64,000 nt of DNA from Actinomortierella ambigua (Eukaryota; Mortierellomycota; Mortierellomycetes; Mortierellales; Mortierellaceae): NCBI GenBank assembly GCA_016098155.1, contig JAAAJB010000105.1, positions 1 to 64,000 of the forward strand, read 5' to 3'. Both the position numbers and the translations under genes were made by a program. The notes beneath the pieces are model-generated. The model was not told where the DNA came from and made no database searches. It was given only the letters and a program-made list of their open reading frames with translations. The stretch's first letter is position 1; every line of letters begins with the position of its first letter. Positions 33,518-63,650 of the stretch are shown here, in pieces.

Positions 33518-35341
33518 TTAGATCAAGTCAGCAACGTTCATGGGCATCTCAAGGATCTGGAAAAGGTTTGAAAAAAAAAAAAAGAAAATTAAAATATGTT
33601 AGAAGGGAAAAGTCTTTTTTTTTTCGAGTAGAGGTACAACCACATATGAAGAACACAGTGACAACAAAAGCCCCTTCTTACCTGAGTGCTGTAGAACTGC
33701 TCAATCTCGCGGAGCATGCGAGTGTCGTCAGCAGTGACAAAGTTGATCGAAACACCCTTACGACCGAAACGACCACCACGACCGATACGATGGATGTAGT
33801 TCTCCTTGTTGGTGGGCAGGTCATAGTTGATGACGAGCGAGACCTGCTGGACATCGATACCACGAGCCAACAGATCAGTGGCGATCAGGACACGGGACGA
33901 GCCGGAGCGGAACTCCTTCATGATGACCTCACGCTGGGCCTGCTCCATGTCACCGTGCATGGCAGAGACGGTGAACTCACGGGCGAGCAGCTTCTCGGTC
34001 AACCAGTCGACCTTTCTGCGGGTGTTGCAGAAAATGACGGCCTGGGTGATCGTGACGGTCTCGTACAGATCGCACAGGGTGTCGAGCTTCCACTCCTCCT
34101 TCTCGACGGCGACGTAGAACTGCTTGATACCCTCGAGGGTCAGCTCGTCCTTCTTGACCAGAATGCGGATGGGGTCGCGCATGAACTTCTTGGTGACCTC
34201 CAAGACATCGGCGGGCATGGTGGCCGACAGAAGGACAACCTGGGTCGAAGGGGGGAGGCGCTGGAAGACCTCGTAGATCTGATCCTTGAAACCACGGGAC
34301 AACATCTCATCGGCCTCATCGAGGACGAACTGCTTGATGTGGTCGGTCTTCATGTAGCCACGGTTGATCATGTCAAGGACACGACCGGGGGTACCGACGA
34401 CGACCTGAGCACCCTTGTTGAGGATGTTCTGGTCCTCGCGGACGGAGGTACCACCAATGCAGGCGTGGCAGGTGACCTTCATAAAGTCGCCAAGGGCAAT
34501 GACGACCTTCTGGATCTGCTGGGCCAACTCACGGGTGGGGGCCAGGATCAGGGCCTGGCACTGGGGGTTGGCAAGGTCCAGCTTCTCGAGGACGGAAATC
34601 GAGAAGGTGGCGGTCTTACCGGTACCGGACTGAGCCTGAGCGATGACATCATTGCCCTTGATGACGGGCATGATGGCACGCTGCTGAATGGCCGAAGGAC
34701 GTTCGAAACTATGGTGCGAAAAAAAAACCAGGTAAACGGTGGTTAGGAATCCAACAGTCTTGAATGTTGTTGTCGTTATTGTTGTTTTTTTCCGGTGCGG
34801 TGGCACATACACAGTATGTGACACAGCATAGGGATCCCCCGCAGTAAATGCGCTCAGGCAATATGTGGATGATCCCATCCGAAACAAACAAAAAATCATC
34901 GGGCTGGTTCCTGGGTGCTTTTTCTTTTGTGCAAATCCTTTTTAGCTTTCGACCTGAACATACCCATAGGCATAGATACCGCGGAGCAACTCGGGCTTGA
35001 GGTTCATGTTGTCGAAGTTGTCGACAACCTCCTCCCAGTTGGACTAGCAACGAGACAAAAATAAGAACCAATGCTCATGTGAGTACAACATATTTTGTTG
35101 TTGTGGTCTTAAATCATGGGGCAAGTGAGTCGGGAACGATGGAATCAACAAGAGAGAGAGGGGGTAGGGCATTGATTTCGCCCGTCTCCTTGCAGGAAGG
35201 GAGAACGGGAGGGGAAGAGGAGAGGAAGGGTCACCCTCATTCTTTACCCCTTGCCCAGCAGCACTTGTGTCAAAGATAGCTTACCTCGATCTCCTTGTCG
35301 GGGATGTCAAGGCCGGAGCCATCTTCAGGGCTAGTAGACAT
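33518..35341 (-). CDS. TIF1: Translation initiation factor eIF4A, DEAD-box RNA helicase
   Basis: Exons 35341-35285, 35043-34964, 34708-33682 and 33556-33518 give 400 residues, the usual eIF4A size. The Q motif '[12 protein letters not shown]' (47-58), Walker A 'AQSGTGKT' (71-78), 'PTRELA' (103-108), 'TPGRVLDM', DEAD (176-179), SAT (207-209), 'ARGIDV' and 'HRIGRGGR' are all intact. The end '[10 protein letters not shown]' is typical of eIF4A, not of other DEAD-box proteins. It unwinds mRNA leaders within eIF4F in the cytoplasm. A TATA-like element lies about 75 nt upstream of the ATG, and RPA1 is divergently transcribed about 1.1 kb away. Exon 1 is acidic and variable, as in other fungi. A catalytically degenerate paralogue lies at 58252-61440 and shares the string 'LRGIYAYG'. 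Confidence 0.97.
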
Positions 35342-57066: not shown

Positions 57067-58035
57067 GCCTGCCCCCCTTTTTTTTATGTTGACTTCGCCT
57101 GTTTTGGATAATCGAGGTCTTTTTCTCATGCTGTATGACCCCTCCTTTCTCTTTCTTTCTTCTTTCATCCATCCTTGCTTGCCTGCCTTCATGCGTTCTT
57201 GTCTTCCCTCCCGCCACTTCTCTCTCTGCCTCTCCCTCCGTCTCTCTTTCTCTCTCGTTTGCTTCACATTTTTGCATTCAGCATGTATACCCTTCGCCTG
57301 TCTCAGAGTGAAAATCTGGTTTCCGTTGTACTTTTATGCATCCCTTCACCTCTCTTTGTTATGATCTCTTTCTTCACCGTTATGACTTTATGATATGATC
57401 AAGCCACATCCACCCCACCTTGTACCACAGCCCCTCTCTCTTCCATGCTCACACATATACTTTTCAGCGTGGCACTCACGCATGCCTCAATAAATGACAC
57501 GTTCCGAATTTTATACCGAAAAAACTGCTGCAGCAAGTAATGTACAGAACTCGAGGTTAACCGAACCCCTTTTCCCCTTCCCCTTGCGATATGGCCCAAC
57601 TAATTGGAGACGCGTGAGCCTCGTTGCAGGCGTTCTGTTTGGTTGTATCATGGCCAAATCGAGCTCAACAGCAACAGTGTTTGTGTACATACAGGACACA
57701 AGCACTCGTCCCCCTTTCTTCTCCCTCTTTTTTTTTGTCTCTCCCCTAGCCACATGCACCCCTATTTTTCCAAACTCTCCAAGGTCGTGACAATAATGGT
57801 GCTGTGTATGTATTTGTGTCCTTTGTACCCTTGTTTGTGGCCTGCTGACTTGTTAAAGAAAAAGGAGCTGTCATTCTGCCCAGGGATGCGTCAGTCACCT
57901 ATAATCCTTGATACACCCCGATGCCTGCCTGCTCTTCACTTCTCTCTCTTGCCTCTTCTCAGCACTAAATTCCATTTTCTTCGTCTCACACACACTCTCT
58001 TACTCTCTTTCCTCTCTTTCGTAAACACACACACA

Positions 58036-58087
<52 letters not shown>

Positions 58088-58251
58088 TCCTCGTTCCACT
58101 GTTCCCTCTCTTTCTTCAACTGCTACGGCCTCCATTCGCCACAATAGCATTTCATCCACCACACTTGCCGACTGTATTGTTTAACCGCCATTGTATTGTT
58201 TCCTTGTAACAGTTACAACATTCCGTTGCTAAAGGACCGAGGGTAGTCATT
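57067..58251. other. Intergenic, CT-rich leader
   Basis: AATAAA at 57489-57494 is a poly(A) signal for the upstream gene. From 57930 to 58140 the coding strand becomes CT-rich, ahead of the ATG at 58252. No supported gene. Confidence 0.5.
58039..58088 (+). repeat. (TC)n dinucleotide tract
   Basis: About 50 bp of nearly pure TC, next to a short (CA)n at 58025-58036, about 165 nt upstream of the start of the eIF4A-like gene. Confidence 0.85.
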
Positions 58252-61200
58252 ATGTCCCATCCCACACTAGCCGAACTTTCGTTGGCGCTGAGCCATGTCC
58301 AAACCTTGTTGTCGGACCTGACAGCAGAGGTCAAGGTGATTGCAACCGGGATCGCGCATCTAGTACATGAAGAGAAGGCCGCCAAGGAGCAAACTCGTGA
58401 GGACGACAAGGAAGATGAGCTGGACTACCTGGATGTAGACCCTTGGTCGAACGTCAACGAGCAGGAGCGGGCTAGTGCATTTGCCTCGGATTATGATGAA
58501 GACGATGATCACGGCTACGGGCGCGAGGACGATGATGATGGTAACGGCCACAAACGGTCGATTGCCACGACTGGCGCGGCAGCTGGAAGTGTAGCAGCGT
58601 CAGCTTTGGCCCGAAACAATACGGGTAAGAAGACGCGCAAGGACAGCATTCGCTCGCTCTTGCAGCGCCGGCCTTCGACGGTCAAGGATGAGACAAAGGC
58701 ATTGGCACGCATCCTTAGTCAAAAGGGGGGTAGTTCTCTGCGGCAGTCGACCACCTCAAACTCGGAGAGTCCAGACCAACATCAGCAACCTACACCGTCG
58801 TCCTCTCCTGATGAGTTGTTCGAAAGCGGTACGATCACAGGGTCAGGGGGCATGCGGTCAACGGGCAGCGGAAACACTGCCACCCCCTCGGATCAGCGAC
58901 AAGAGTACAACAACACCCCACAGGAGGGAGAATCTGTCCCTCACACCATCACAGTGCAAACCCGCAATGTCCAAAAGTATGCGCTCGCCTTCACAAAACC
59001 CTCAGCTCCTCAAAGCGTGACAGCTCCATCGTTGTCCACACTGGCCAGTCAACCATTGCCATCGATCGCAGGAAGCGGTTCAGGACCGAGCACACCTAAC
59101 GCAGCCTCACCTCCCAACAACCCTCCGCCCTTTTGGAGGTCTTCGACTATGCCGATTCCGGCTACAGAGAGCAATGTGAGCCGTCCTCACTCGGCTAACA
59201 GTGCCTACTCTGCCTTGGAAGGCAACGGCAGACAAAATGCCACTTCAACGGTAAGATTTAGTTTATTGTTAGCATTGTGTGCATTGGTCTTCTTTTTTTT
59301 AGAATTGGAGATAGAGGAGTGGTGCTAATATTTATTACAACCTATTCTTTTTTTTTCTCTCTCTTGGCTACTGGCACAGCATGCTTCGCGGAAATCCATT
59401 GACGCAAGGTCTCTCACATCAGATCACTATAGTTTCATGGGCAACAGCAACTCTCAGGAGCGCAAGGCTGGCGGTAACCCCGTACTCCATCCCGGTGTCG
59501 GCAGGGACCCCGTGCACCAGACGTTCCGACCACCGCAGTCATCGTCGGCGACCCATGTGGAGCGGGTAGAGTCGGTCGACTGTTTCAGCAAGCTTGGCCT
59601 CTCACCAGAGTTGCTGCGCGGTATCTATGCCTATGGTCTCAAGGTGCCGACGTTCCTCCAGCAACGGGGCATTCCCATGATCATGACGCGCCAGGACGTT
59701 CTTGCGCAGACCAAGCCTGAGATTGCCAAGACGGTGACCTACTCGATTCCGTTGCTACATTTCCTGACTTTGCCTGCAACATCCATCCATCCCCAACTGA
59801 TCATCCTGTGCTCCAACCATGACCTGTGCTTGCATGTCCAGCGTGTGTTGCTTGCTCTGGCAAGATTCATGCCAACCATCTCGTGTCTGATCTGTGCCGA
59901 CGGCGACAATGCAACTATTTCTCATGGTACCATCTCTACTACCCAGGTCAAACTCCAACAGCAACAACAACATCAACAAGGTAGAGGTCCAACAGCCTCG
60001 TTCAGCGGCGCCAATACCTATAACAAGCGGCATAGCACACCAAACACATTCACTCCTGCGACTGAATACCTACCTCCGATTGCCGCACATGTGGTGATTG
60101 GCACGCCTTCCAAGGTCCTGCACATGTTGAGGACAAGGCAGATCAGCACCAAGGCCCTCAAGACCCTCCTTCTCGAAAATGCCGATGTATTGTTGCTAGC
60201 ACCCTTCAAGGAGGCCACAATAGCTTTGATGTCCATGATTCGTGAGGTTCCCAATCCAGGAACAAACGGCTATTCAACGGCTGGCCGTATGAGCTCCAAC
60301 ACCGCGACTGCACCCTCGGGTGGTAGTATGGCCTCTCCCCCAAACTCAGGACCTACGTCGCCTGTTTCGATGGCTGTTGCTGCACTCAATGGCCGTATCA
60401 TGACTGCCAACGGAGGCAGCACATCACCATCAGGAGGAACTGGAGCAGGAACAGGAGCCACGGCGGCTCATGATATCAATGGTCGCTCAACCTCGCCCTT
60501 AAAGAGTCCAATGCAACAACAGCAACAACAACAGCCAAACCAAGTCCAATACATCTTCCTCTCGACGGACGTGCCATCATACGTGCTTGATTATGTGGCA
60601 CAGTACATGCTACAGCCGACCAAGGCACTGGTGAAAGGACATGATCTGGCGCTCAAGGGGATCTTGCAGTTTTACCGGTACCTAACGTTGGATGACGATG
60701 ACTGGCGTGCCGAGACTTTGTGCGACATCCTGGAGGACAGTGGCGTGCATCACGCCGTAGTATTCTGCAATTCGGCTACTTCTGTCGATCGTGTCTTACG
60801 GAAAGTGTGGCAGCGGAACCAAGCGCGTGCCATCGGACTGGTGAGTATCTTTGTTGCGAGTATAAAAAGGAAAGAGTTGCAAAGCGAGGGGAGGGGGAGG
60901 GGGGAGGGAGAGAACGGAGAATTAAGGATGATTCTAATTTCAACCACGAACTAAATTTTTTTTTGTTTCATTTATGGGCATATTGATATACTTTAGCACG
61001 ATGATATGGACATCATCGCAAAGAAGAATGCTCTTGGTGTGTTCCGACAAAAGGCCTCAGCAACATACTTGGTGACAACAGATGCCCTAGTCAAGGATCT
61101 TGAGATCCTGGGAGTGCCTCTCGTGGTTAGCTATGAAGTGCCTGCGATCTCGAATTACATTTCACGCGTCAAGTGGATTGATCGCACAGGTGGGCGAATC

Positions 61201-61440
61201 GGAATCAAGATCTCCCTCGTCGACGGACAACGTGGCGAGGCCGGCGCCCTACGTGCTATCCAACAGCACTACAGGACGCCTATAGACGACATGCCTGTAA
61301 GTTTCTGTGTGTGAGAGGAGTGGAAGGCGTGTAGGGATTGTTCGTTTTGTGTTTAGAGAGGGGCAAGTTGACGATCTGACAAACTTTCTAAACCATAATT
61401 CACCTCATAGGCAAGCATTGCAGATTTGATCATCAACTGA
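58252..61440 (+). CDS. Catalytically degenerate eIF4A-like protein (pseudohelicase)
   Basis: Exons 58252-59250, 59380-60840, 60997-61296 and 61411-61440 give 929 residues. The first 390 are acidic then Ser/Pro-rich and unlike eIF4A. From about 405 the protein follows eIF4A step by step ('LLRGIYAYG' is identical to the window's eIF4A). The helicase motifs are broken. 'AQSGTGKT' became 'AQTKPEIAKT' (441-451). PTRELA is lost, TPGR is now 'TPSK' and DEAD is 'ENAD' (599-602). SAT is 'STD' (728-730), and 'HRIGRGGR' became 'SRVKWIDRTGG' (876). The scaffold remains: 'GILQFYRYLTLDDDDWRAET', 'HAVVFCNSATSVDRVL', and the end 'DDMPASIADLI'. Two low-complexity inserts (about 521-556 and 625-718) enlarge it. 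ATP binding and unwinding look impossible. It may compete with or scaffold eIF4A partners such as eIF4G. AATAAA is at 61523. Confidence 0.82.
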
Positions 61441-61805: not shown

Positions 61806-63650
61806 ATGAGCTACTACTCCCTTACAAGCCAGCGTCTTCGAGAATGGCGCCGCAAGCTCACCCTGTACAGTGATCCCTATGATGACTATGATGACGAATA
61901 TGACCGATCCGAATCGAACGACGACCAATCCTGCGACGACGCTGACGAGGGTCATGCATGGGCGTCTTCGGCCAACGAACAACAACAACAACAGCAGCCC
62001 AAGTCCCACACCAAAGCAACAATACCTACCAGCACACAGAGCAAAAGTCGAGACCAGGATGACGGCAACGACGACCCCAGTCCTCCACAAGCAACTCGAG
62101 GTCGCGGTCGTGGTCGCGGTCGTGGTAGGCGAGGGAGGGGCGGCGGCAGGGCCACTGGAGACAGTCATGACAGTCAAGCACAAGGAGAAGAGCCCTCCGC
62201 TCCCGTCTCTGTCCCTGAGCAAAGCGGTGGGCATGTGCCTCTCGAACCACCCCCTTCTTCTTTGCCGAATCAGCCTGGAGCCCCACCACGTGCAAAGCCA
62301 GGGGCGACCAGGGGCCGCGCGAACGTCCGTGGTCGCGGACGAAGAGGAGCTGGGAAGGAGGTCGGCATCGGTCGACATACAACCCAAGGGACACCAAAGA
62401 TTGAAGAAGAGATTACAACACCCCTGCCGCCACTATCAACAGCCGCTGACAATGCTACCAATGCAACAGAGGCTGCAGAGGCAATAAAGCAGGATGGGGA
62501 GCAGTCAGGAGAAGCAGTCATGTCGCCTTTGGTCCATATGAGCGTGGGCACAGCATCAACCTCCACAATACAGGATGCAACTCCATCGTGGAAAGAGAGC
62601 CGACACTCTACACCCTTCACCAACCCCATCCCTCCAAAGAAGCGGGGCAGGCCAAGCAGTATCCTTCATAGTCATGGACACCCAGAAAGCAGTCATGAGG
62701 GCGCTGGAAAGGGGTCTGTCAGTACAGTAGACAATGGGCCAGCAGCAGTGCCCAGTTCTCCAAGCAAGCGTGGTCGACCGAGTCGAGCCTACGTATCAGA
62801 AGGCCAGAAGCGTACCAATTCGGACTTAACGGAGGAAAATGGTCGAGAAGGCAATGCTGAGGCAGTAGAGACATCAGCGATGGAGGAGGTTGTGGCAGAG
62901 GGACAGAAATCATTACCGCCACGCGTAGAGGAAGCGGAATCAAACCCTAGCTCTCCAAGAAAGCGAGCACGAACAGGCAACAGCAACAGCGGCAACAGCA
63001 ACAGCAACAATATCAATAGCAGCAGCGGCAATGTCATTAGCAACAACGACAATAGCGACAGCAGCAATGTCATTAGCAACAGCAGTAAAAGCGACGACAA
63101 CAGTGTGAATAGCAACAACGGCAATAGCAGTATTAACGACGGCGACATCAATAACACTAATGACAACCAGGTTCAAACAACCATTACGACTGACGCCACT
63201 TTGTCTGCCACGACACCAGCGATAACTGAGACCATCAGCACGACCACGACCACGGCTGCGACTATTTCCGCTCCCGGTTCTGCTGCCACGCCCGTAACTC
63301 CCACAAATAACAACAATGATAACAACGATCACAACAACAACAACAACATACCCTCAAGTGCGACTCAGCCGCTGAAGCGAGTCTACATCAATGAAAAGAC
63401 CAAGGAGCCTCGAGCGGAGCGATTGAATCGTCAGATCCTGCACATGCCGGCGAAACTGGACAAGCGACGGAGTTGTCATCTGTGCAGTTTTGTGGGCAAA
63501 AAGGACGAAAAGGGCGAGAAGAAGCAGATTTTGACCCAGTGGCGATGTAAAGGGTGTGATGCCCATCTCTGCTTGACGGGCGAACGCAATTGCTTTGCGC
63601 TCTTTCATGAGATGAAGGATCTGGCGCCCTTGAGAGAATACTCGGGTTAA
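61806..63650 (+). CDS. AT-hook protein with PiggyBac-transposase-like C-terminal zinc finger
   Basis: A single 614-codon exon. The start 'MSYYSLTSQRLREWRRKLTL' is helical and acidic Asp/Glu stretches follow. A Gly-Arg run ('RGRGRGRGRGRRGRGG', about 100-120) resembles RGG/AT-hook segments. Two AT-hooks are clear ('KKRGRP' near 280 and 'SKRGRP' near 322). An Asn/Ser-rich low-complexity block leads to the C-terminal finger, Cys557-x2-Cys560, Cys581-x2-Cys584, Cys589, Cys596 and His601 ('RRSCHLC', 'WRCKGCDAHLCL', 'CFALFHE'). This Cys/His spacing is that of the zinc finger ending PiggyBac-type transposases, which reads DNA at transposon ends. There is no DDE catalytic domain, so it is probably a domesticated DNA-binding protein of the nucleus. 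AATAAA at 63669-63674 lies 19 nt after the stop. Confidence 0.78.
   Translation: MSYYSLTSQRLREWRRKLTLYSDPYDDYDDEYDRSESNDDQSCDDADEGHAWASSANEQQQQQQPKSHTKATIPTSTQSKSRDQDDGNDDPSPPQATRGRGRGRGRGRRGRGGGRATGDSHDSQAQGEEPSAPVSVPEQSGGHVPLEPPPSSLPNQPGAPPRAKPGATRGRANVRGRGRRGAGKEVGIGRHTTQGTPKIEEEITTPLPPLSTAADNATNATEAAEAIKQDGEQSGEAVMSPLVHMSVGTASTSTIQDATPSWKESRHSTPFTNPIPPKKRGRPSSILHSHGHPESSHEGAGKGSVSTVDNGPAAVPSSPSKRGRPSRAYVSEGQKRTNSDLTEENGREGNAEAVETSAMEEVVAEGQKSLPPRVEEAESNPSSPRKRARTGNSNSGNSNSNNINSSSGNVISNNDNSDSSNVISNSSKSDDNSVNSNNGNSSINDGDINNTNDNQVQTTITTDATLSATTPAITETISTTTTTAATISAPGSAATPVTPTNNNNDNNDHNNNNNIPSSATQPLKRVYINEKTKEPRAERLNRQILHMPAKLDKRRSCHLCSFVGKKDEKGEKKQILTQWRCKGCDAHLCLTGERNCFALFHEMKDLAPLREYSG

Follow-up and report, generated by a model that had tools for sequence, protein, structure and literature searches.

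An apparently eIF4A- or eIF4A-III-derived pseudohelicase of Mortierellaceae as a likely binding adaptor independent of ATP hydrolysis

eIF4A is a very constrained enzyme, and the locus described here raises the question of what role a copy of it that has lost its helicase chemistry could have. The gene lies in a 64,000-nucleotide stretch of an Actinomortierella ambigua contig (the window), and its features are collected in Table 1. An earlier reading made from the letters alone (the sequence-only reading) had described an intact frame of four exons and 929 codons, together with a normal eIF4A in the same window; the eIF4A is as described, and the coordinates, frame and exon count of the pseudohelicase gene proved exact. 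All three introns are GT-AG, and the 487 codons of exon 2 stayed open in none of 2000 base shuffles. The database protein P0002 of A. ambigua, which is named eIF4A, also has 929 residues and matches the gene's product at 99% identity across residues 390-929, the part searched. The gene's codon usage shows little bias (ENC 54.5 vs 31.7 for eIF4A), which would fit low expression of the pseudohelicase.

Table 1. Position of the pseudohelicase gene, its parts and the canonical eIF4A gene in the window
Feature	Coordinates	Strand	Remarks
Whole pseudohelicase gene	58252..61440	+	Actinomortierella ambigua; four exons, 929 codons plus stop
Exon 1	58252..59250	+	residues 1-333; long N-terminal region; GT donor at 59251
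N-terminal helix	58267..58362	+	residues 6-37; five heptads with hydrophobic a/d positions; coiled coil predicted
Conserved segment	58627..58725	+	residues 126-158; KKTRKDSIRSLLQRRPSTVKDETKALARILSQK (PSTVKDETKALARIL type)
Intron 1	59251..59379	+	129 bp; GC 0.33
Exon 2	59380..60840	+	residues 334-820; holds RecA1, both inserts and the beginning of RecA2
First half of RecA1 (RecA1a)	59569..59940	+	residues 397-520; best-conserved domain part
Former Walker A (motif I)	59710..59733	+	TKPEIAKT for AQSGTGKT
Former motif Ia	59812..59829	+	SNHDLC for PTRELA
Insert 1	59941..60075	+	residues 521-565; rich in Gln; little conserved (six orthologues, 20-67% identity)
Former motif II	60175..60186	+	ENAD for DEAD
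Insert 2	60247..60540	+	residues 623-720; low complexity, conserved SPPNSGPTSPVS-type element; 27-58% identity to six orthologues
RecA2	60541..61437	+	residues 721-929; split by introns 2 and 3
Intron 2	60841..60996	+	156 bp; after AIGL
Exon 3	60997..61296	+	residues 821-920
Former motif VI	61162..61197	+	SRVKWIDRTGGR for HRIGRGGR
Intron 3	61297..61410	+	114 bp
Exon 4	61411..61440	+	residues 921-929 and stop; eIF4A-like end ASIADLIIN
Canonical eIF4A	33518..35341	-	four exons, 400 aa; same contig as the pseudohelicase; alignment and genome search

The eIF4A of the window, which served as control, is of the eIF4A-I type (672 bits to human eIF4A-I vs 610 to eIF4A-III), and besides the eIF4A-III locus L002 (582 bits) the genome search gave no further match above 295 bits. 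The alignment of the pseudohelicase with this control took in the two RecA domains (E 2e-33 and 6e-25; 35.4% identity in 376 columns), and Pfam DEAD (35.2 vs a cut-off of 26 bits) and Helicase_C (32.8 vs 23.5 bits) were both recognized, which bears out the suggestion that the two-domain scaffold is kept. Both RecA domains are also present in the AlphaFold model of an orthologue, for which the eIF4A fold is thus predicted to persist.

Orthologues bearing the names of 13 Mortierellaceae genera were found. Their sequences share ancestry, so that the counts given below are not independent events. Among the Mortierellaceae sequences checked (44 for motif II), no orthologue with an intact site was found: motif II reads ENAD in 44/44, and also in P0062 and P0063, so the broken motifs are conserved in the orthologues. 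Two protein searches listed no relatives outside Mortierellaceae among their matches; they required shared 5-residue words and scored the best 7,990 and 7,997 candidates, so that a diverged relative could be missed.

The motif changes were counted in 40 cores, a set that leaves out P0002 (the window's own protein), P0006, P0041-P0045 and the partial ORFs P0064-P0071. Both glycines of Walker A are replaced in every core, the first by Glu and the second by Ala or Thr, and GxGKT is absent; the altered form was seen in 43/44 sequences, the stretch being missing from P0045. Among the 44 full predictions, GxGKT is confined to P0004, P0005, P0007 and P0013, where it belongs to a downstream eIF4A copy fused to the orthologue. 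Motif Ia takes the form SN[HNY][DE]LC in 42/44 sequences, P0044 and P0045 having no such stretch. In motif VI, where HRxGRxxR is no longer found, the His is lost and the middle Arg (human R362) has become Trp in all 40 cores; the first (HR) and third Arg are kept in 40/40, so that the sequence-only reading, which had all the arginines altered, was right for the middle one only, although a one-residue insertion makes the register of these alignment-based counts uncertain. Its further claim that TPGR is altered is true of the window (TPSK) and in part of the family, where Lys replaces Arg in 36/40 cores and the Gly is kept in 34/40. Judged from these alignments, the Mortierellaceae sequences found have lost, in the same way, the residues that bind the phosphates of ATP and hydrolyse it.

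Part of the site is still there. The Lys-Thr of Walker A, the last Asp of DEAD and the Ser of SAT are kept in 40/40 cores, and so are the Gln of the Q motif and its upstream Phe; the Phe after Gly has become Leu in 40/40. Since the Q-motif Gln and upstream Phe, the Walker A Lys-Thr and the DEAD Asp are all retained, the pseudohelicase may bind adenine nucleotides weakly.

We took as reference the 166 positions that are invariant across 17 canonical eIF4A and eIF4A-III proteins. Kept and lost positions numbered 23 and 34 in the motifs and 44 and 65 elsewhere (odds ratio 1.0, p = 1). The idea that loss was targeted at the helicase motifs was thus rejected, as motif positions were not lost more often than other invariant ones. 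Neither was there a significant excess of fixation of new residues at motifs (p = 0.15 overall), nor was entropy lower at the changed motif positions (p = 0.62 and 0.25). The comparison of the lobes, with variable positions that are still mostly canonical removed, gave 30/43 vs 19/56.

Conservation differs sharply along the protein. The first half of RecA1 is 84-97% identical to six orthologues and 84-87% identical to five relatives in other genera, where canonical eIF4A reaches 87.5-90%, with a mean column entropy of 0.08-0.30 per 20 positions. With the same five relatives, identity falls to 60-62% in RecA2 and to 20-47% in the inserts, although the SPP..SP element of insert 2 is matched in 42/44 sequences. 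Since the RecA2 motifs IV, QxxR and V vary, with mean entropies per 20 positions that reach 1.18, the mRNA binding proposed by the sequence-only reading looks doubtful.

That reading had also proposed a long regulatory N-terminus, and conserved elements are indeed present there, although the coiled coil predicted in it and any docking role are read from the sequence pattern. The a/d heptad positions of the N-terminal helix are hydrophobic in 98-100% of 41 sequences (three of the 44, which have no TLAEL anchor, were left out of the count), and the full-length model, which is otherwise poor, shows a helix at residues 6-54 with block pLDDT of 71-80 up to residue 50. The predicted coiled coil probably mediates oligomerisation. 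Residues 126-158 are 82-100% identical in six pairwise comparisons, compared with 33-68% for the whole N-terminal region, and the pattern QRxPSTVKDETKALARILSQK occurs in 39/44 sequences.

We infer that the pseudohelicase is a binding adaptor whose function needs no ATP hydrolysis, and we put at roughly 60% the probability that it is a family-wide Mortierellaceae protein of this kind, probably oligomeric. The first half of RecA1, from the Q-motif helix to the former motif Ia, is nearly as constant as that of working eIF4A and would be the likely partner-binding surface. RecA2, no longer an RNA clamp, would serve as a second and looser lobe. Through its N-terminal coiled coil the protein could form a dimer or higher oligomer and so offer its RecA1 face several times over, and RRPSTVKDETKALARIL and SPPNSGPTSPVS, conserved stretches of disordered regions, could be regulatory or docking sites. 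The likeliest task would be the control of mRNA or of translation, by way of a MIF4G-type partner or another protein that binds eIF4A.

One such partner would be eIF4G, and the protein could then be a natural dominant-negative eIF4A that replaces eIF4A in eIF4F and lowers cap-dependent translation. Changes are found at sites where eIF4A is experimentally inactivated, namely the E of DEAD and R362 (excerpts of PMC7470955), and R362Q is dominant negative in an excerpt of PMC10362145. The predicted lobe arrangement of P0063 is nearest to the MIF4G-bound structures 5anr, 2vso and 4ct4, though in a model of pTM 0.61 that stands without a control. Five eIF4A-eIF4G contacts are named in the excerpts of PMC7470955 (human R45, D265, E268, D296 and T298). 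Two of them, R45 and E268, are unchanged in all 40 cores, and 39/40 have an acidic residue at position 265, but D296 has become Lys, Asn, Gln or Arg in 40/40 and T298 is kept in only 8/40. According to the same excerpts, human D296K significantly reduces eIF4G binding, and our alignment puts a Lys of A. ambigua eIF4G at one of the two positions described as lying opposite residue 296. Moreover, the commonest residue is kept at 2/4 of the contacts that are invariant in eIF4A-I, compared with 67/166 of all canonical-invariant positions, which are too few positions for the interface to be called kept. The earlier idea of an eIF4G competitor is therefore weakened on its own contacts, and we regard the dominant-negative reading as unlikely.

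We consider it quite unlikely that the protein is a nucleotide or RNA sensor without hydrolysis, in which ADP, AMP or another ligand would sit in the adenine pocket that is retained, held also by the Walker A Lys, and switch the adaptor by binding. In its favour, the 40 cores are invariant at the Q-motif residues Gln, Pro and upstream Phe, at the Walker A Lys-Thr and at the DEAD Asp, but this retention is not selective, as the whole surroundings of the Q motif are nearly invariant; the Glu at the first P-loop glycine, the Ala or Thr at the second and the drifting RecA2 motifs also speak against it.

The ancestry of the family bears on a further alternative. The gene appears to be derived from eIF4A or eIF4A-III. 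The node placing the pseudohelicases inside the eIF4A group has 65% support, with a branch of 1.68 substitutions per site, and in AU tests, run after ten sequences had been dropped, all four placements survived at the 5% level: beside eIF4A-III (p = 0.51), beside Mortierella eIF4A (p = 0.41), outside both groups (p = 0.18) and beside eIF4A-I as a whole (p = 0.06). The placement with eIF4A-III would suit an eIF4A-III-type adaptor that meets CWC22 and NOM1, MIF4G proteins acting in the nuclear pathway, instead of eIF4G. Position 296, polar or basic in the pseudohelicases, is Asn in the two eIF4A-III sequences compared, and the confirmed CWC22 locus and a putative NOM1 locus (a weak match) have, by eye, Glu and Asp where eIF4G has Lys. 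This charge argument hangs on one residue, however, position 268 is Glu as in eIF4A-I, and the diagnostic residues are split between 4 of eIF4A-I, 4 of eIF4A-III and 12 of neither, which leaves this alternative very unlikely.

Several gene predictions are irregular. Six orthologue predictions (P0006 and P0041-P0045) are truncated or skip exons and P0029 has no N-terminus; we assume these to be gene-calling errors. At least 13/46 sequences carry an eIF4A copy on the pseudohelicase's contig, with all five intact motif strings in 9/13. The contigs that carry a 909-residue orthologue measure 2,967 nt at most, which leaves no room for introns and implies a spliced transcript in that relative, and the place of intron 2 is conserved, as 7/8 of the metagenomic ORFs P0064-P0071 break there while P0067 reads through. 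A decaying pseudogene or prediction artefact, which the irregular predictions, the predicted fusion of the pseudohelicase with a downstream eIF4A copy in six database sequences and the decay of some neighbouring eIF4A copies might suggest, is hardly credible given the intact frame in the window, the 84-87% identity of RecA1a to relatives in other genera, the conservation of the new residues among orthologues, the implied spliced transcript and the conserved intron place. That the gene is a selected pseudohelicase, as first proposed, is supported by the invariant ENAD, the implied transcript, the eIF4A fold predicted for an orthologue and the conserved elements of the N-terminus.

A copy of eIF4A that lost the chemistry, and in which half of RecA1 then came under almost the constraint seen in the enzyme, suggests that this lobe also binds something in a way that can be parted from the turnover of ATP. 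The pseudohelicase would be a natural separation-of-function protein for finding that role. Cultured Mortierellaceae species exist, for example Mortierella alpina, so the question is open to bench testing. Database names mislead here, since 38/44 of the orthologue rows P0002-P0045 carry the names eIF4A, eIF4A-I or eIF4A-III. Only tentatively would we propose that this is the first eIF4A-derived pseudohelicase family, in which a frozen motor lobe binds through its broken ATP site, is brought together in several copies by a coiled coil and is controlled by phosphorylation, giving one fungal family an ATP-independent regulator of mRNA translation or of a MIF4G protein.

The pseudohelicase resembles eIF4A (human 6zmw and 5zc9, yeast 2vso) in its two RecA lobes, the LLRGIYAYG lead-in, the Q motif and the C-terminus. 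The PDB entries that match its sequence best are those of eIF4A and eIF4A-III, which by predicted fold also rank near the top. It differs from eIF4A in being 35% identical, in its altered motifs I, Ia, GG, II, III, V and VI, and in the added 390-residue N-terminus and two inserts. By sequence it is as close to eIF4A-III (DDX48, of the exon junction complex; 197.9 bits) as to eIF4A (192.3 bits), but it shows the same losses relative to eIF4A-III, and the true eIF4A-III is elsewhere in the genome. The inactive or dominant-negative eIF4A mutants made in the laboratory (DQAD, R362Q/K) are changed at the same residues, whereas the pseudohelicase has many further replacements and altered eIF4G contacts.

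Pseudohelicases as such are already known. In the open-licence literature (titles, abstract openings and the matches listed), we found no report of an eIF4A-derived one or of this protein. Deinococcus PriA is likewise a helicase called a pseudohelicase (excerpt of PMC4504706) but belongs to a bacterial DNA helicase family. Closer is Utp25/Def, the pseudohelicase of the SSU processome, which the excerpt of PMC9539457 describes as a conserved protein with a predicted DEAD-box fold, lost catalytic motifs and a disordered N-terminus; the same two marks, a predicted fold that is kept and a motif loss that is conserved in orthologues, are found here. Unlike Utp25, which according to that excerpt is alike in yeast and human and is part of the SSU processome, the Mortierellaceae protein appears to be eIF4A-derived, has so far been found only in Mortierellaceae, and combines a conserved RecA1 half with a predicted coiled coil.

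The gene model agrees exactly with the sequence-only reading of an intact gene of four exons and 929 codons, and its introns of 129, 156 and 114 bp are all GT-AG. The gene lies on a 73,367-bp contig of the 33.8-Mb Actinomortierella ambigua genome, and P0002, a database protein from this species, has the same length and matches the window protein at 99% over the searched part. The eIF4A gene of the window is ordinary and lies on the other strand, 23 kb from the pseudohelicase; the eIF4A-III gene is elsewhere in the genome.

Features of the pseudohelicase locus, and motifs of the window protein as directly aligned to canonical eIF4A
Feature	Position in window	Strand	Content	Canonical eIF4A
CT/TC microsatellite	58030-58100		long; ~150 bp upstream of pseudohelicase start codon	
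Pseudohelicase gene	58252-61440	+	N-terminal region, RecA1, two inserts, RecA2	
Next gene downstream	61807-63650	+	long low-complexity ORF; C-terminal Cys-rich segment CHLCSF...CKGC...HLCL	
Q motif			GLKVPTFLQQ, Gln kept	
Walker A			TKPEIAKT	AQSGTGKT
Motif Ia			SNHDLC	PTRELA
GG			DG	GG
TPGR			TPSK	TPGR
Motif II			ENAD	DEAD
Motif VI (after SAT in the series)			SRVKWIDRTGGR	

In the alignment, the catalytic Glu183 of human eIF4A1 is replaced by Asn and Arg362 by Trp. According to the available text of PMC7470955, human eIF4A carrying DQAD or R362K has been reported to lack helicase activity, and that of PMC10362145 describes R362Q as a dominant-negative mutant. From the motif changes and these published mutants at the DEAD Glu and Arg362, we can safely infer that the pseudohelicase would not hydrolyse ATP. 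A loss of all nucleotide binding would not be safe to conclude, because residues on the adenine side and the Lys of Walker A are kept.

Querying protein databases with residues 390-929, and with a core profile built from four sequences, gave orthologues assigned by name to 13 Mortierellaceae genera (Actinomortierella, Mortierella, Podila, Haplosporangium, Linnemannia, Lunasporangiospora, Gryganskiella, Dissophora, Entomortierella, Gamsiella, Modicella, Lobosporangium and Benniella), and the matches ranking under them were ordinary eIF4A and other DEAD-box proteins. In the window protein and P0003-P0045, 44 sequences that are not 44 independent events, many being closely related or different strains of a single species, LENAD is found in all 44, the altered Walker A in 43 (all but P0045, which is missing this stretch), motif Ia as SN-x-[DE]-LC in 42 (the stretch is absent from P0044 and P0045) and the motif VI pattern in 40 (P0041-P0043 are truncated and P0024 has VKWVDR). 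None of these 44 is an orthologue with intact motifs, the main outcome that would have refuted the sequence-only reading, and GxGKT occurs in four predictions, only inside a fused downstream eIF4A copy. The claim of a pseudohelicase is supported, the loss being common to the Mortierellaceae orthologues found. Despite ENAD, 38 of the 44 orthologue rows in public protein databases (P0002-P0045) are named eIF4A, eIF4A-I or eIF4A-III, a naming that could spread via annotation.

Linkage of the pseudohelicase to an eIF4A copy was found in at least 13 of 46 (window, P0003-P0045, P0062, P0063). The two lie on one contig in the window, and likewise in seven further cases inferred from same species and equal contig size (A. 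wolfii, M. claussenii, E. beljakovae, M. sp. GBA43, D. ornata, M. sp. AD094 and M. sp. GBAus27b), and five predicted proteins (P0004, P0005, P0007, P0008, P0013) pass from exon 3 of the pseudohelicase into an eIF4A copy lying downstream. Linkage was not seen in the other 33 among the 120 of 7,992 eIF4A matches listed. All five checked motif strings are intact in 9/13 linked copies; P0191 lacks the SAT string, P0095 and P0008 are altered and P0013 is cut short. Several linked copies lie apart from unlinked ones in the eIF4A tree, where node support is mostly <55%. Several linked-copy species have additional eIF4A proteins on other contigs, and in the A. ambigua genome no eIF4A was found besides the linked one.

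Fusions with the directly downstream copy are predicted in P0004, P0005, P0007, P0008, P0013 and P0044. The motif strings are intact in the copies of the first three; the P0013 copy is cut short, and those of P0008 and P0044 are decayed. These are probably gene-calling joins or, conceivably, a real chimeric transcript. More double or degenerate eIF4A-like proteins are P0095 (Dissophora ornata), on a contig of equal size to that of the D. ornata pseudohelicase P0039, and P0103 (Dissophora globulifera). Mortierellaceae seem to duplicate and erode eIF4A repeatedly.

P0016, a 909-residue orthologue from contigs no longer than 2,967 nt, has no gap at any window junction; its coding sequence takes 2,727 nt, and three window-sized introns would add 399 nt, too long for these contigs. 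On genomic contigs of near relatives, P0064-P0066 and P0068-P0071 are interrupted at AIGL or AIGV, where the window gene has intron 2, and P0067 reads through there. Since introns would not fit and related genomic ORFs break at intron 2, P0016 appears to be a spliced transcript. The pseudohelicase has weak codon bias (ENC 54.5 vs 31.7 for eIF4A), so expression is probably modest. Arg or Ser precedes LKMPS in P0064 and P0065, Linnemannia-like metagenomic ORFs, and may represent a splice acceptor AG plus the third base of a Gly codon. From these unspliced ORFs we infer an intron at the same phase-2 place as that of the window eIF4A (IYAYG^F); the window pseudohelicase has none there. The pseudohelicase may derive from either eIF4A or eIF4A-III.

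The special feature of the pseudohelicase is the contrast between its lobes, not motif loss. Among the 166 positions invariant in 17 canonical eIF4A/eIF4A-III proteins, there was no extra loss at motifs, other positions being changed equally often. Mean column entropy in 40 complete orthologue cores is 0.27 for RecA1 vs 0.63 for RecA2. Canonical-invariant positions whose commonest residue is now a different one are fixed at ≥95% in 30/43 cases in RecA1 vs 19/56 in RecA2 (p = 5e-4), and in 21/22 up to position 120. Between the window protein and five relatives in other genera, identity is 84-87% over residues 397-520, 60-62% in RecA2, 33-42% in the N-terminal region and 20-47% in the two inserts; thus the broken P-loop and motif Ia sit in the best kept part. 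For the canonical eIF4A of A. ambigua, identity is 87.5-90% with three unlinked eIF4As from other genera and 84.2% with one linked copy. The simplest explanation would be that the RecA1 face with the broken P-loop and motif Ia does something new.

Outside the lobes, residues 6-37 are predicted to form a coiled coil: all a and d positions across five heptads are hydrophobic in 98-100% of 41 sequences (three of the 44, without anchor, left out), and six of these ten positions are Leu in the window protein. Residues 126-158 show 82-100% identity in six comparisons, and their RRPS/RKPS core resembles the consensus of a basophilic kinase site. Insert 2 contains SPPNSGPTSPVS, possible proline-directed sites.

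Could the protein compete for eIF4G, as had been proposed? Five eIF4A1 contacts are named in the available text of PMC7470955. In the 40 cores, R45 and E268 are kept in all; D265 is Glu in 32, Asp in 7 and Gly in 1; D296 is Lys in 26, Asn in 8, Gln in 4 and Arg in 2; and T298 is Thr in 8, the remainder being Ser, Phe, Leu, Ile and others. As 67/166 canonical-invariant residues are kept anyway, retention of R45 and E268 gives no clear sign of a kept eIF4G interface. According to the same text, binding to eIF4G is significantly reduced by D296K in human eIF4A1 and rescued by acidic residues at eIF4G 779/783 (PMC7470955). Aligned A. ambigua eIF4G, with the numbering placed from residues named there, has Ser and Lys at the matching places. 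With one contact charge-changed (D296) and one drifting (T298), the competitor role is unsupported as stated, and a plain eIF4G competitor would be possible but not favoured. The suggested mRNA-binding role is likewise unsupported as stated. By eye, translations of the CWC22 locus and a putative NOM1 locus are acidic at the corresponding place, which is a lead only.

Among the titles and abstracts that the literature searches listed, none reported an eIF4A-derived, family-wide pseudohelicase with a frozen RecA1 half. The kind itself is not new, since Utp25 is a known example of a pseudohelicase in the available text of PMC9539457.
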